From Acidobacteriota bacterium (lineage in GTDB: Bacteria > Acidobacteriota > Thermoanaerobaculia > Multivoradales > JAGPDF01): 64,000 nt of DNA. The first letter of the stretch is position 1. Each line of letters starts with the position of its first letter. Position numbers and translations under genes: made by a program. The stretch spans positions 1 to 64,000 of the forward strand of contig JACTMI010000006.1 of assembly GCA_014584695.1 (NCBI GenBank). Reading direction: 5' to 3'. A model generated the notes under the pieces. It was not told the DNA's origin and did no database searches. It saw nothing but the letters and a program-made list of their open reading frames with translations. Positions 21,834 through 26,529 of this stretch are shown here, piece after piece.

Positions 21834-22808
21834 CTAGGCGCCCAGCGTCACGACCACGCTGCCGCGCTTGCGTCCCGTCTCCACGCGGTGATGCGCGTCG
21901 ACGATCCGCTCCAAGGGGTAGGTCTGATCGATGACCGGCGTGAACGCGCCGGCTGCCGCGATCGCGGCGAGTCGGTCAAACTCCTCGACGCGCGCGAGCG
22001 CCGGACCGGCGATCACGCGATGCGCTCGGATCCTCCCGGCGAGCGGCGCGAGCAGCAGGTCCAGGAAGCCGCCGAGCACGACGAGCAGGCGCCCGTGCTC
22101 CGCGAGCGACCGCTTCACCCGCGAATATCCCGCATTGCCGACGGTGTCGACGATCATGTCGTACCTCTCCCCGCTCGCGGTGAAGTCCGCGCGGGTGTAG
22201 TCGATCACCCGGTGCGCGCCGAGCGCGCGGACCAGGTCCACGTTCGCGCCACTGCAGACCGCCGTGACCTCGGCGCCGAAGTGCCGCGCGAGCTGCACCG
22301 CGGCCGAGCCCACGGTGCCGGACGCGCCGTTGACGAGCACGCGCTCGCCGCTCGCGAGCGCCCCGCGCCGGAAGAAGCTCAGCATCGTCATGCCACCGAA
22401 CGAGAGCGCGGCGGCCTGCTCGAACGACAGATTCGCCGGCTTCCGCGCCACGAGGCCGCTCGCCGGGAGGCACCGGAGCTCCGCGTGACACCCGAACTTC
22501 GCGTCGGCGAAGGCGAAGACCTCGTCGCCGGCGCGGAATTCGTGGACCCCTGCGCCGATGGCCTCGATGGTCCCCGAGAGCTCCGTTCCCAGGATCGGCT
22601 GTCGCGGTCGCCGAAGGCCGAACGCGAGCCGGCCAAACGGTCCGAAGCCCGGCGGCATCGCGAGACTTCGCGCCCGCCAGTCGCCGGTGGAGACCGTCGT
22701 GGCGCGGATCCGGATCAGGACCTCGCCGTCCTGAGGAGTCGGCGTCGGGACGTCGCGGATCGAGACGACTTCGGGAGCACCGTACTGCTCGTACACCGCC
22801 GCTCTCAT
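21834..22808 (-). CDS. Zinc-independent MDR-family oxidoreductase (quinone reductase-like)
   Basis: Medium-chain dehydrogenase/reductase, 324 residues. The GroES-like N-terminal half starts 'MRAAVYEQYGAPEVV', and the NAD(P)-binding half has 'VLVNGASGTVGSAAVQLARHFGAEVTAV'. The usual structural-zinc cysteines are missing, placing it with NADPH:quinone oxidoreductase or enone reductase-like members that reduce reactive carbonyls. 'CSGANVDLVRALGAHRVIDY' (about 205-224) is the typical segment after the Rossmann loop. The ATG overlaps the stop of the methyltransferase gene and has AGGAAG upstream. It is last in the Cys-rich peptide operon. Substrate unknown. Confidence 0.9.
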   Translation of the reverse strand: MRAAVYEQYGAPEVVSIRDVPTPTPQDGEVLIRIRATTVSTGDWRARSLAMPPGFGPFGRLAFGLRRPRQPILGTELSGTIEAIGAGVHEFRAGDEVFAFADAKFGCHAELRCLPASGLVARKPANLSFEQAAALSFGGMTMLSFFRRGALASGERVLVNGASGTVGSAAVQLARHFGAEVTAVCSGANVDLVRALGAHRVIDYTRADFTASGERYDMIVDTVGNAGYSRVKRSLAEHGRLLVVLGGFLDLLLAPLAGRIRAHRVIAGPALARVEEFDRLAAIAAAGAFTPVIDQTYPLERIVDAHHRVETGRKRGSVVVTLGA

Positions 22809-23518
22809 AGGGTCTTCCTGATCGGTGGCCGGCTCCGCTCTCCAACCAGCGGTTTCGAGAGCATGACGGAGCGGTAGGCACCGCCGATTGCCCCCGGTTC
22901 GTCGCATTCGACCACGAGGCCCGTGCCCGCGAGGAGCGGCTCGAGCCGGCGGCTGATGTCGGAGAAGAGCGCCCGGGTGACGAGGTTGAGGAGCCGACGC
23001 GCCCTCGAGGGCTGCTCACCCGCGCGCAGGAACTTGTCGAAGATCGCGATCCGACCGCCGGGCCGCAGGACGCGCGCGGCCTCCTTCATGCCGAGCTCGG
23101 GCTGCGGCATCACCGCCAGGATCAGGTGCAAAACGACGGCGTCGAACGAGACGTCGGGAAACGCCAGCCGCCGAGCATCCTGAATCTCGGCCGAGACCGG
23201 CCGGCCGGCGCGCGCCGCCCGGCGTGCGAGGCGCTCGAGCATCGCCGGCGTGACATCGATCGCCGTCACTTCGACTCCCGCCGGCAGCAGATCGAGATCG
23301 AGACCCGTCCCGGCGCCGACGAGGAGCACGCGGTCGCCCGCGCGCAGCTCGAGCCGGTCGATCGACCGGCGCCGCGCCCCCGTGAATCCGGCCGCGCCGA
23401 CGAGCGCATCGTAGACCGGCGCCCAGAGGGTATAGAGGACGCGGTTGCGGTCGCGGCCGACGAGCGTCGGCATCAACGCGACGCCGGCCGCGAGGGTGAC
23501 TCCGATGACCCAGGGCAT
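22805..23518 (-). CDS. Membrane-anchored class I SAM methyltransferase
   Basis: 237 residues. A short N-terminal hydrophobic anchor ('PWVIGVTLAAGVALMP') is followed by 'LYTLWAPVYDALVG' and the SAM-binding motif 'VLLVGAGTGLDLDLLP'. Motif II 'VSFDAVVLHLILAVMP' and 'ARVLRPGGRIAIFDKFL' complete a class I fold. The 'WAPVYD' opening and the ending resemble phosphatidylethanolamine N-methyltransferase/UbiE-like enzymes, so the substrate may be a lipid or a small hydrophobic or thiol molecule. No arsenite-methylase cysteine triad is visible. ATG at 23518 has GGAGAAG upstream; a longer start at 23584 is open but lacks homology-like sequence. Confidence 0.85.
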   Translation of the reverse strand: MPWVIGVTLAAGVALMPTLVGRDRNRVLYTLWAPVYDALVGAAGFTGARRRSIDRLELRAGDRVLLVGAGTGLDLDLLPAGVEVTAIDVTPAMLERLARRAARAGRPVSAEIQDARRLAFPDVSFDAVVLHLILAVMPQPELGMKEAARVLRPGGRIAIFDKFLRAGEQPSRARRLLNLVTRALFSDISRRLEPLLAGTGLVVECDEPGAIGGAYRSVMLSKPLVGERSRPPIRKTL

Positions 23519-23531
23519 GGCGCTTCTCCGT

Positions 23532-23957
23532 TCAGGAGTGGACTCCGTGGACGACGGCGCGCGCCACGCACCAGGCAGCGCCACCGTAACCGACCGTGGT
23601 GACGGCGAAGCTGAGCGCCATCAGCGCTCCGAACGGCTTCGTCGGCCGCTGCGACAGGTCGGGCTTGAGCGCGAGCGCCACGAATCCCGCCGGGTTGGTG
23701 AGGGAGCCGAGGCTCATCGCCGTGACGACCGCCGGCGGCGGGGCGATCCGCAGGTGCTCGAACAGCAGGAAGAAGACGTACAGGAGCCCGGCCATCATCA
23801 GGAAGTCGAGGTGCGCCTTCACCAGGTACGGATAGCTGGGGAAGCACCGCTTCACGAACGACGACGACCGGGCTCCCGCCAGGCACCAGGCCAGCACGAG
23901 CGCCAGCGTCAGGCAGACGCTGCCAACGGCGGCCAGCATGCCCGGAACGGCAAGCAT
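23532..23957 (-). CDS. Hypothetical four-helix membrane protein
   Basis: 141 residues, four predicted transmembrane helices: 'MLAAVGSVCLTLALVLAWCLAG', 'FLMMAGLLYVFFLLFEHL', 'AVVTAMSLGSLTNPAGFVALAL' and 'ALMALSFAVTTVGYGGAAWCVA'. I do not recognise the family. Loops contain 'CFPSYPYLVKAHLDFL', with a Cys and a His that could be functional. Its ATG shares one base with the stop of the upstream Cys-rich peptide gene (TGATG), so expression is translationally coupled. The methyltransferase follows 13 bases later. It may be a transporter partner or a membrane redox protein, but that is a guess. Confidence 0.75.
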   Translation of the reverse strand: MLAVPGMLAAVGSVCLTLALVLAWCLAGARSSSFVKRCFPSYPYLVKAHLDFLMMAGLLYVFFLLFEHLRIAPPPAVVTAMSLGSLTNPAGFVALALKPDLSQRPTKPFGALMALSFAVTTVGYGGAAWCVARAVVHGVHS

Positions 23958-24151
23958 CAACGGCGCCCCGCCAGCGACGCGTCCGCGGGCGCTTCGCAGT
24001 TGCAGGCGCCGCAGCCGCAGGCCGCTCCGCCGCGGCAATCCTCGCCGCAGGCGCACGCGGCCGCGGACGGCGCCGCGACGTCCTGGCAGCCACAGGTGCA
24101 GGTGGAACCGATGCAAGAAGCGCACACGCAGATGTTCGACGAGTTCGACAC
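23957..24151 (-). CDS. Metallothionein-like Cys-rich peptide
   Basis: 64 residues with 13 cysteines (20 percent), arranged as CxC and CxxC pairs at residues 8/10/13, 18/20/22, 33/35/39, 45/47 and 50/52, with a Cys-free spacer at 23-32. There are no aromatic residues. This is the composition of a metallothionein, which binds Zn, Cd, Cu or similar ions in the cytoplasm, though it lacks the SmtA-type conserved aromatic/His pattern, so the family is not assigned. The start is placed at the GTG at 24151, because AAAAGGAG lies six bases upstream. An in-frame ATG at 24181 would add ten residues but would put the coding sequence on a palindrome. First gene of a four-gene operon. Confidence 0.72.
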   Translation of the reverse strand: MSNSSNICVCASCIGSTCTCGCQDVAAPSAAACACGEDCRGGAACGCGACNCEAPADASLAGRR

Positions 24152-24170
24152 GAGAATCTCCTTTTCCGGT

Positions 24171-24199
24171 GTTGACGTCATGTCAACGAGAGAACTCTC
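24171..24199 (-). promoter_or_regulatory. Two adjacent palindromes before the Cys-rich peptide gene
   Basis: GTTGAC-GTCAT-GTCAAC (24171-24187) is a perfect 6-bp inverted repeat, directly followed by GAGAG-AA-CTCTC (24188-24199), also perfect. They lie 20-48 bases upstream of the GTG start and look like operator sites for dimeric regulators. On the minus strand the first includes TTGACA, a possible -35 box, though no convincing -10 box follows. Confidence 0.6.
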
Positions 24200-24243
24200 A
24201 CACGCCGGCGGAACGCCGGGATTGGACGCAGCGGCTGTCGTCG

Positions 24244-24257
24244 TTGAACGAATCGGC
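24244..24257 (-). repeat. Copy 1 of exact 14-bp inverted repeat bracketing the AraC gene
   Basis: On the minus strand this reads GCCGATTCGTTCAA, identical to 25165-25178 on the plus strand. It overlaps the last base of the AraC stop codon and sits upstream of the Cys-rich peptide operon. It probably marks the AraC regulator's binding half-site at the operon promoter. Confidence 0.7.
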
Positions 24258-25114
24258 TAGATCGACTGCCGCTGGGGCCGAGAGCCGTCGGGCTCGTGCG
24301 CCGGAGCGTCGAACGGCGCGGCGATTTCCGCGAAGTCGCCCTGCATCAGTACGGACGGAGCCATGCCGACCATCTGGTAGAAGGTCCTCGTCAAGTGCGC
24401 GGCGTCGGCGAAGTCCGCCGCGTGGGCGGCGGCCGCGATCGTCCGCTCGGAACCGATCGCGACCATGGCCCGCGTCAGCTTGCGCCAGAGCATGTAGCGG
24501 CTGAACGGCAAACCTACCTGCTCCTTGAAGAGATGAGCGAAGCGGGTGGGCGACAGAAAGGCCATCCCCGCCGCCTTGTCGAGCGAAATCCGCAGGTCGT
24601 CGGAAGCGCGGATCGCCGCGAGCACCTTCGTCACGCGCGGATCCAGCCGCCGCACCGGCACCGCGCCGGGCCGCAGCCCGTTCACTGCGCGACGCACGAG
24701 GTGGGCGACGTCGTCGATCTCCTCGGGCCGGTCGACGAACGGCAGCAGTTCCTCGCGGATCGCCGCGAGCCGCGCCTCGGCGATGGGCGTGATGTCGCGG
24801 CGCAGCGTGGCGGACAGCCAGGCGCCCTCGCTCGACTCCGGATCGACGAACAGCATGACGCCGAGCGCGCCATTGCAGTCGAACGAGTGCTCGGCGTCCG
24901 ACCGCACGACGACGCCCCCACTCTCCTGCCACTCCCCGTCGCGGCCGCAGATGGCGACGGCCCCGTCGAGCGCGACGACGACCTGGATCGCGTGGTGCGC
25001 GTGCGACGGCACGACCCCCCGGGCTCTGGCCGCGAGCAGGAAACCGCCCTCCCACAGGTACCAGCGCGGGACGCTCAACCAGCGATACGGCTCCGGACTC
25101 CGGGGCTCGGGCAA
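24257..25114 (-). CDS. AraC-family transcriptional regulator
   Basis: 285 residues. The N-terminal cupin-like sensor half has 'VVPSHAHHAIQVVVALDG' (about 34-51), with the His-rich strand typical of AraC ligand domains. The C-terminal half has two helix-turn-helices: 'ISLDKAAGMAFLSPTRFAHLFKEQVGLPFSRYMLWRKL' (about 180-217) and 'TIAAAAHAADFADAAHLTRTFYQMVGMAPS' (about 230-259). The start is TTG at 25114; a stop lies just upstream in frame and the only nearby ATG is out of frame. The gene is flanked by an exact 14-bp inverted repeat, which suggests it controls itself, the Cys-rich peptide operon and perhaps the divergent lipoprotein gene. Confidence 0.9.
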   Translation of the reverse strand: MPEPRSPEPYRWLSVPRWYLWEGGFLLAARARGVVPSHAHHAIQVVVALDGAVAICGRDGEWQESGGVVVRSDAEHSFDCNGALGVMLFVDPESSEGAWLSATLRRDITPIAEARLAAIREELLPFVDRPEEIDDVAHLVRRAVNGLRPGAVPVRRLDPRVTKVLAAIRASDDLRISLDKAAGMAFLSPTRFAHLFKEQVGLPFSRYMLWRKLTRAMVAIGSERTIAAAAHAADFADAAHLTRTFYQMVGMAPSVLMQGDFAEIAAPFDAPAHEPDGSRPQRQSI

Positions 25115-25164: not shown

Positions 25165-25200
25165 GCCGATTCGTTCAAGAACTCCGGCAGCTGCGTTCAA
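25165..25200. promoter_or_regulatory. Tandem AraC-type half-sites
   Basis: GCCGATTCGTTCAA at 25165-25178 is followed by GCAGCTGCGTTCAA at 25187-25200. The two match at 11 of 14 positions, share CGTTCAA, and start 22 bases apart, two helical turns. That is the usual spacing of AraC direct-repeat half-sites. They lie 51-86 bases upstream of the regulator's TTG and about 80 bases before the divergent lipoprotein start. Confidence 0.65.
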
Positions 25201-25276
25201 TCTCCGAGTCCGCCGCGGTCTCTAGTCTTTCCGACACACCGCGGCGACCACGCCGCGCTGTTGTCCGGAGACGACG

Positions 25277-25561
25277 ATGCGTAGGAGGTCCCTGACCCTG
25301 CCGGTCCTGGCGACCGCGACCGCGGTCGCCCTCCTGTCCGCTTGCGGCCACGCGATGACGATGATCCACGGAGCGGACGCGGCGACCGCAGTCGGCCTCG
25401 GGCCGCGGACGGCGGCGGAAGGCCGCTACGTCGCGACGCTCGCGACCGCGCGACCGCCGGGGCCTACGCCGTCCGAGCTGCGCCAGCGCGAGGCGTTCCT
25501 GCGCCCGCTGAGCGGGCCCTTCGAGCGCGGTGGCCCCGCCACGGCAAGTCCGACGTCGTGA
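25277..25561 (+). CDS. Small predicted lipoprotein
   Basis: 94 residues. A signal peptide ends in the lipobox 'LLSAC' (Cys22), so the mature protein is lipid-anchored. The rest has no recognised domain; it contains two Met residues and a His close to the anchor ('GHAMTMIHG'), which could bind metal but may be chance. It diverges from the AraC gene. Its stop overlaps the GTG of the next gene by four bases (GTGA), so the pair is co-translated. The lipobox and coupling support it as a real gene. Confidence 0.65.
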   Translation: MRRRSLTLPVLATATAVALLSACGHAMTMIHGADAATAVGLGPRTAAEGRYVATLATARPPGPTPSELRQREAFLRPLSGPFERGGPATASPTS

Positions 25562-25896
25562 GTCGGACCGTCGATCTCGTTCTCTGCGGTCGAGGCGACG
25601 CTCTTCTCGCCGTCGCGCTCGAGGCGATCCGGGACGGTCAGCGCATTCTCGTCGTGATGCGCACGGGCGACGCCCGCACCGCGCGCCAGCTCCGTCGTGC
25701 GCTCGGCAGCGCCGTGGACGGCGTCAGGGGCCGAGTCGCGGTCATGACGAACGCCGAGATCGTCTGTGTCGACGGCGTCGACGCCGTGGAGGCCGTACTC
25801 ATCCGGCAACTGCGGACGGGACGGATTCATGCCGTGAACGCCTCCGCATTCCGGTCGAGCACCGGATCTTCGGAATCCGCGGGGGGGCCGTCGTGA
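25558..25896 (+). CDS. Half-length thioredoxin-reductase-like (NADPH-domain) protein
   Basis: 112 residues from a GTG coupled to the lipoprotein gene. The sequence follows the inserted NADPH-binding domain of thioredoxin reductases. 'DLVLCGRGDALLAVALEAI' takes the place of 'VVVGGGDSAAEEAL', 'RILVVMRTGDARTARQLRRAL' matches the 'VTLVHRRD...RAS' strand-helix, and 'VMTNAEIVCVDGVDAVEAVLIR' matches '...NTEVVEIEGD...VEGVVVRN'. The FAD domain and CxxC are absent. The Gly-rich loop is degraded (CGRGD), so NADPH binding is doubtful. It may be a stand-alone sensor or a partner protein; I cannot name a function. Confidence 0.6.
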   Translation: MSRTVDLVLCGRGDALLAVALEAIRDGQRILVVMRTGDARTARQLRRALGSAVDGVRGRVAVMTNAEIVCVDGVDAVEAVLIRQLRTGRIHAVNASAFRSSTGSSESAGGPS

Positions 25897-25998: not shown

Positions 25999-26529
25999 AC
26001 GAGCGGAGGAGGTTTCAACTCCGGCGAGGTCTCGGTCGCCTATGGCGCCCCCGGAGGCTTCGATCTGTCCCGTTCGGTCCGCTTCTCGCAGAGCAGCATC
26101 TTCGCCGGCGAGAGCTCCGAGGCCGGCGACGAGTTCGGATTCTCGCTCGCTGCCGGCGATTTCGACCGTGACGGCCACGACGACTTGGCGATCGGTGCCC
26201 CCCACGAGGTCATCACCGGCACGGCGGACGGCCACGCGACCGTGATCATGGGATCTCCGAGCGGACTCCTGGCGAACCGTTGCCGCGGCATCACCGCCGG
26301 CCTGGAGGGCTTCCCCGGCAACGCCAACGAGCACTCCAAGAACTTCTCGTGGGCCCTCGCGGCGGGTGACTTCGACGGTGACGGCCACGCCGATCTCGCG
26401 ATCGGCGCGCCGTTCGAGACGGCGGGCACCGCTTCGGACGGCGGCGCGCAGACGATCCTCTACGGTGCGCTCTTCGCCGACGGCTTCGACAGCGGCAACC
26501 GGGACTTCTGGTCCTCCTGGGTGCCGTGA
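25999..26529 (+). pseudogene. 3' remnant of an FG-GAP repeat protein
   Basis: The frame is open from 25897 but has no plausible start. FG-GAP homology begins near 25999 ('GTSGGGFNSGEVSVAYG') and contains two calcium-type motifs, 'GDFDRDGHDDLAIGAP' and 'GDFDGDGHADLAIGAP'. It ends in 'FADGFDSGNRDFWSSWVP', the same tail as the intact FG-GAP proteins at 42954-46336. Those are about 550 residues; only about 175 remain here, with no signal peptide. The truncation point lies about 100 bases after the previous gene, marking a recombination junction. Confidence 0.72.

Follow-up and report, generated by a model that had tools for sequence, protein, structure and literature searches.

The cysteine-rich peptide encoded on the minus strand at 23957-24151 of the window (the whole 64 kb stretch of DNA analyzed here) belongs to an unnamed family of bacterial proteins that probably bind metal (metallothioneins). 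The family is absent from the libraries searched and comprises 19 members, 18 in the window's phylum (the window's own copy included) and one on a Cupriavidus megaplasmid. It is quite probable that the peptide is a metallothionein for some soft metal, under the control of an AraC-type regulator, and close to an even bet that the metal is copper; the label "metallothionein" is itself one that we infer from cysteine layout and gene context. The gene has the following setting.

23957..24151, minus strand: cysteine-rich, metallothionein-like peptide gene, from GTG 24151 to TGA 23957 (64 aa, 13 Cys)
24158..24163, minus strand: Shine-Dalgarno sequence AAGGAG, ahead of GTG 24151
24171..24187, minus strand: inverted repeat GTTGAC-N5-GTCAAC in the leader, an RNA hairpin or a DNA dyad
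24221..24249, minus strand: direct-repeat operator 1, upstream of the peptide gene, two GTTCAA-type half-sites with a 22-base period
24257..25114, minus strand: AraC-type regulator with a C-terminal HTH_18 domain and an N-terminal invariant HxHHxxQ...H, cupin-like below threshold
25173..25201, plus strand: direct-repeat operator 2, on the upstream side of the regulator and pointing away from it
23532..23957, minus strand: MemA, a hydrophobic, probably membrane protein whose start overlaps the peptide stop; present at 6 of 18 loci, counting the window
22805..23530, minus strand: class I SAM-dependent methyltransferase, lying downstream and read in the same direction
21834..22907, minus strand: zinc-binding dehydrogenase, quinone reductase-like; homologue in the flanks of 4 of 18 loci, window included
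25277..25561, plus strand: divergent lipoprotein frame, its N-terminal part like a YtkA-like lipoprotein and its end like a MauG-like C-terminus

The initial annotation had described a peptide of 64 residues and 13 cysteines at these positions, leaving the strand unstated, with CxC clusters around a cysteine-free middle spacer and a Shine-Dalgarno-backed GTG 30 bases into the longest frame, and all of this is borne out. That frame opens at ATG 24181, a codon that falls within the leader inverted repeat. The 18 other members each have an ATG at the position equivalent to GTG 24151, with GGA in the preceding 16 bases; these ATGs were chosen by eye, and longer alternatives exist for some of the frames. 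The comparison supports GTG 24151 as the likely start of the window peptide. Cysteine makes up 20% of its residues, it contains neither histidine nor aromatic residues, and it has no hydrophobic segment. The cysteines run CxCxxCx4CxCxC (six), then, after a 10-residue cysteine-free spacer, CxCxxxC, five residues and CxCxxCxC (seven). Because homologues exist, the peptide is a genuine gene, and a chance ORF is ruled out by homology, selection and shuffling: it is the sole ORF of 40-120 aa in the window with at least 11 cysteines in 50 residues, and a comparable ORF was absent from 30 of 30 first-order Markov-shuffled windows.

The family was reached through whole-genome searches and through the window regulator as a second probe. 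Searching 59 genomes of relatives with the peptide gave 11 non-self matches, one of which is a real relative in a sister genus (G004, locus L002); six others (L003-L008) lack a peptide of this pattern, and the last four have no locus. Contig scans, whether with the peptide alone or with an alignment of two rows, yielded no confirmed relative, and it is possible that low complexity hampered confirmation by tblastn. When the window regulator was run, with a limit of E<=1e-60, against 297 genomes of the phylum, there were two matches besides itself, both directly followed by the peptide. With four aligned rows as the query, the peptide was recovered from 7 of the 396 genomes sampled across the phylum and from 13 of the 150 sampled in family f76, counts that include the window's own genome and others already known. 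The 18 same-phylum members are spread over four families (f1, f39, f68 and f76). Most genomes of the window's class lack the gene, which counts against our reading: the two-row alignment found it in 2 of 148 genomes of the class, and in none of the three other genomes of the window's genus.

The remaining member is encoded on plasmid pMTS1 of Cupriavidus sp. P-10 (Pseudomonadota; locus L051). The style of some proteins encoded near the other 18 hints at Acidobacteriota, which would place Cupriavidus in another phylum. We accepted the plasmid member despite an E-value of 0.003 because it retains the cysteine pattern and the Shine-Dalgarno site and is immediately preceded by an AraC-type gene. 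Used as a query against the plasmid collection, the Cupriavidus peptide matched nothing, not even its own record; the filter thus conceals peptides of this kind, which makes the plasmid count at least one. The window regulator found no match in the same collection at E<=1e-30, and the Cupriavidus regulator found itself and one distant Sinorhizobium protein (38%).

Across the 19 proteins the cysteine pattern is constant and the residues between vary. The shared layout of 12 cysteines is CxCxxCx4CxCGC, a cysteine-free spacer of 10-11 residues, and CxCGxxCxCGxxCxC, in peptides of 50-64 aa with 11-14 cysteines, so that the clusters and spacer seen in the window peptide recur in its homologues. Ten alignment columns are invariant and eight of these are cysteine (M1, C8, C10, C18, C20, G21, C22, C35, C45 and C47; the invariance of M1 rests on the chosen start codons), and C13, Q23, C33, G36, C39 and C41 are kept in at least 90% of members. 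The window copy has two extra cysteines near its C-terminal end, and a single histidine occurs in 5 of the 19 peptides. Most pairs compared are under purifying selection, with dN/dS (NG86) below 0.5 in 15 of the 16 equal-length pairs of at least 62% identity; the pairs share members, so they are not independent, and none includes the window copy. Against our reading stand the remaining pair, L030/L031, at 1.8, and the loss of one of the 12 cysteines in 4 of the 19 members (C41 in the window, C13 in L013, C33 in L020 and C39 in L021).

Small size combined with a high cysteine content in CxC and CxxC clusters at conserved positions is what is expected of a metallothionein, and the family shows both. 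The initial annotation had remarked on the lack of SmtA-type residues, and the SmtA-type profile PF02069 (Metallothio_Pro) agrees, matching none of the 19 members at E<=1; the homologues that it had proposed to look for exist, making 19 members with the window's. Its suggestion of a possible new metallothionein family is supported; the regulator, the operators and the metal-efflux context are additions of the present analysis. An SmtA-type metallothionein is ruled out by this profile. Moreover, none of the 18 genomes holding the gene has an SmtA-type match above cut-off anywhere (G004 has two below it elsewhere), in a scan whose positive control, Synechococcus elongatus, was found. Scanned singly, the 19 members match nothing in NCBIfam at E<=1, and in Pfam there are two chance-level matches, to one member each (RecT, E 0.32; Metallothio_PEC, E 0.57). 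The family profile has no match at E<=1 among PDB chains.

The layout suggests how the peptide may work. CxC clusters joined by a linker are a metal-cluster layout, and the two clusters (six plus six conserved cysteines, mostly as CxC, with a cysteine-free linker) would enclose soft metal ions, Cu(I) being the likeliest, the resulting metal-thiolate clusters on a cytosolic peptide holding the free ion low. A role in cytosolic metal buffering is drawn from this layout, from conservation on Cys, Gly and one Gln, from the lack of a hydrophobic segment, from metal pumps at two loci and from a partner locus that bears YtkA. The AraC-type neighbor would bind the direct-repeat operators flanking its own gene and, upon metal excess or a linked stress, would activate the peptide gene together with the genes on its other side, the YtkA-like gene and the MauG-like enzyme where these are present. 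Metal binding, the choice of copper, operator binding with activation, and the ligand of the regulator are each predictions from these data.

Regulator and peptide are nearly always encoded side by side. Their genes adjoin at 18 of the 19 loci (17 of 18 in the phylum, and Cupriavidus); in G606 the regulator lies on a separate contig from the peptide. In all but one of the adjoining pairs the regulator is followed by the peptide on one strand (17 of 18), and the pair in G004 converges. All 13 peptide-bearing genomes among the 150 of family f76 also carry the regulator, which at E<=1e-50 is found in 15 of the 150; the other two are G598, where the match sits at a contig end and the peptide site would lie past that end, and G640, where the match is split and contains a stop codon, and neither locus holds such a peptide. 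The G004 regulator is 64% identical to the window's and the Cupriavidus regulator 31%. The window regulator scores 53.4 bits against PF12833 (HTH_18; cut-off 33.6), which places it in the AraC/XylS group; HTH_18 was matched directly in the window and Cupriavidus proteins, and the regulators of other loci were assigned by homology. It is presumed to be an activator.

Matches of the regulator to solved structures are confined to the helix-turn-helix region, and its N-terminal region has sub-threshold matches alone (PnbB, E 0.0075; Cupin_2, E 0.16). Within that region H38, H40, H41, Q44 and H76 are invariant in 17 of 17 aligned regulators, a set that would suit a cupin metal site, a non-metal ligand being possible as well. 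It is tempting to speculate, tentatively and as something we would sooner doubt than expect, that the partner is itself a metal sensor in which metal binding at a cupin-like histidine site turns on a dedicated Cu-thionein, with the leader mRNA hairpin tuning expression. If true, AraC-type sensing would be a class of metalloregulation apart from ArsR/SmtB, MerR/CueR, CsoR and CopY.

The leaders of the 18 same-phylum loci share one order: a direct repeat, AGCCGATTCRTYCA / AGCCGCTTCGTTCAAT, with a period of 22 bases, a TGnGAnACT-like block that may be a -10 region, the inverted repeat, and an AAGGAG-like site. At 16 of 19 loci the peptide gene is preceded by the consensus RTTCAWN8GCNGCTSCGTTCAAT with no more than 4 mismatches, the best of 100 shuffles for each locus being 5 or 6; these counts are descriptive because the consensus was written from some of the same loci. 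On the upstream side of the regulator, and directed away from it, the consensus recurs with 3 mismatches or fewer at 13 of 19 loci and with 5 to 9 at the others (best of 50 shuffles, 4 to 7). In the window's genome (4.35 Mb) the consensus at up to 3 mismatches falls at 24221-24249 (minus) and 25173-25201 (plus) and nowhere else, with a reversed-pattern control at 0; these two sites follow from how the consensus was built, and the informative part is the absence elsewhere. Against our reading, the leaders of L023 and L028 have 6 mismatches, no better than shuffles, and the Cupriavidus leader, whose regulator is also the divergent one noted above, has 9 and lacks the operator.

The inverted repeat is recognizable in most of the 18 same-phylum loci and poor in L022 and L031. 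Its arms pair at 101 of 108 positions across the 18 loci, allowing G-U, with the arms entered by hand, a two-base bulge in L030 left out and L051 excluded; re-dealt 3' arms equal this in 6.4% of 10,000 permutations, which makes the pairing not decisive for an RNA hairpin. Shuffles at single loci were mostly non-significant.

The neighbors were counted in flanks that reach 8 kb at most, and less where a contig ends, with an annotation that is not exhaustive. CusA/CzcA pumps above the TIGR00914 cut-off lie within 8 kb at 2 of the 19 loci (L051 and L049), a low number that weighs against our reading; L040 has an RND fragment of unassigned type. On Cupriavidus pMTS1 (L051 7116-14814) regulator and peptide stand directly ahead of a CusA/CzcA-type efflux operon, in the order regulator, peptide, CzcI-like protein (23 bits, cut-off 100), outer-membrane efflux protein, RND adaptor (over the cut-off for HlyD_3 in Pfam, just under it for RND_mfp in NCBIfam) and CusA/CzcA pump (over cut-off). 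As the pMTS1 record carries just 2 features in the collection, missing annotation at this locus has no meaning. It is possible, if distinctly less probable than copper, that the peptide is a zinc/cadmium metallothionein, SmtA-like in action and unrelated in sequence, a reading whose share overlaps that of a soft-metal metallothionein in general. Two six-cysteine clusters could hold Zn or Cd, and the Cupriavidus copy does precede an efflux operon with a CzcI-like protein, albeit one below cut-off, and a CusA/CzcA pump. However, histidine is scarce, the spacing is CxC and PF02069 does not match; the L049 pump (G571; 1157 bits, cut-off 701) carries the segment AIGAMVDAAIIMIEN, which we take to be CusA-type, and the YtkA context also speaks against zinc. 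Rare histidine and mostly CxC spacing favor copper over zinc, and it is for these features, together with the CusA-like pump segment and the copper role of YtkA, that we prefer copper. The available text of PMC13344008 describes YtkA domains as acting in copper handling in B. subtilis.

YtkA-like and MauG-like genes occur near four loci, the MauG-type di-haem enzyme having been tested with Pfam in L047 and L038. The window's short divergent lipoprotein has no Pfam match itself, and it has homologues at four other loci, of which the one tested, in L038, has a YtkA domain by Pfam. The end of the window frame 25277-25561 (ELRQ.EAFLR.LSGP) resembles the C-terminus of the MauG-like enzyme when set against L038, L039, L047 and L048, and it continues the YtkA-like start without a change of frame; the whole is apparently a deletion remnant or an assembly artefact. 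MemB is near 13 of 18 loci, and neither MemA nor MemB belongs to a Pfam or NCBIfam family. Together with the dehydrogenase, the MauG-like enzymes and a cytochrome P460 near the peptide in L034, these are not classical metal-resistance genes, and they could suggest redox or electrophile stress in place of metal. The peptide might then be a thiol-based buffer that scavenges oxidants or nitric oxide while the AraC regulator responds to an organic or oxidative cue; the quinone-reductase-like, MauG-like and P460 neighbors fit such a role. We consider it unlikely, as the cysteines form a metal-cluster layout, heavy-metal RND pumps stand at two loci, and the neighbors differ from locus to locus.

Methyltransferases lie downstream in the window and in L048, and the window's has no homologue at E<=1e-4 in any of the 17 other loci. 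Beside a regulator and hydrophobic proteins, a small cysteine-rich peptide with such an enzyme downstream could also be the precursor from which a modified or secreted product (RiPP, bacteriocin or metallophore) is made. This is very improbable: there is no leader, as the first cysteine comes some 7 residues after the start; the window peptide is free of hydrophobic segments; and there is no recognized peptide-modifying enzyme among the scanned ORF families common to at least three loci.

A metallothionein under an AraC-type regulator would differ from the nearest described systems. Beside SmtA stands an SmtB/ArsR-type repressor gene, which is not so for all of the SmtA/BmtA family. As generally described, MymT, the copper metallothionein of mycobacteria, has a regulator and a layout unlike those found here. 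The CxCGxxCxC spacing resembles that of the eukaryotic Cu-thioneins (Neurospora MT and Drosophila MtnA) and of the plant PEC type, whose profile is touched by a single member without significance, and the resemblance is likely to be convergence. With SmtA/BmtA (PF02069) the family shares small size, cysteine richness and a probably cytosolic location, and differs in its two-cluster CxC layout, few histidines, lack of a profile match and AraC-type neighbor; the available text of PMC7387436 places the regulator gene smtB next to smtA too. MymT is likewise short and cysteine-rich, and copper, suspected here, is reported for it in the accessible parts of PMC7558416 and PMC7387436. By 2020, according to the latter as far as available, biological function had been investigated for two bacterial metallothioneins only, SmtA and MymT; excerpts of later work concern PmtA of Pseudomonas (PMC11237414) and, from Anabaena, NmtA with its ArsR-type regulator (PMC8790569). 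In the literature within our scope, outside which most subscription papers fall, we found neither a bacterial metallothionein family of this pattern nor an AraC-type metallothionein regulator. If our reading is true, the known ways in which bacteria buffer soft metals would gain one more family, which the profiles used do not connect to the others and which has an AraC-type regulator and operators of its own; its 19 members yield a profile for finding more.

Some further ORFs recur around these loci. A conserved small ORF family lacking a credible Pfam match, present in the window (25342-25896, plus strand), L039 (4281-4625) and L038 (4838-5182), sits near the genes upstream of the regulator. 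In G004 (L002 30-1400) a repeat protein with ALFADGFESGN near its end precedes the peptide gene, and at 26185-26529 (plus strand) of the window, some 2 kb away from the module, ALFADGFDSGN stands close to the end of an encoded protein.
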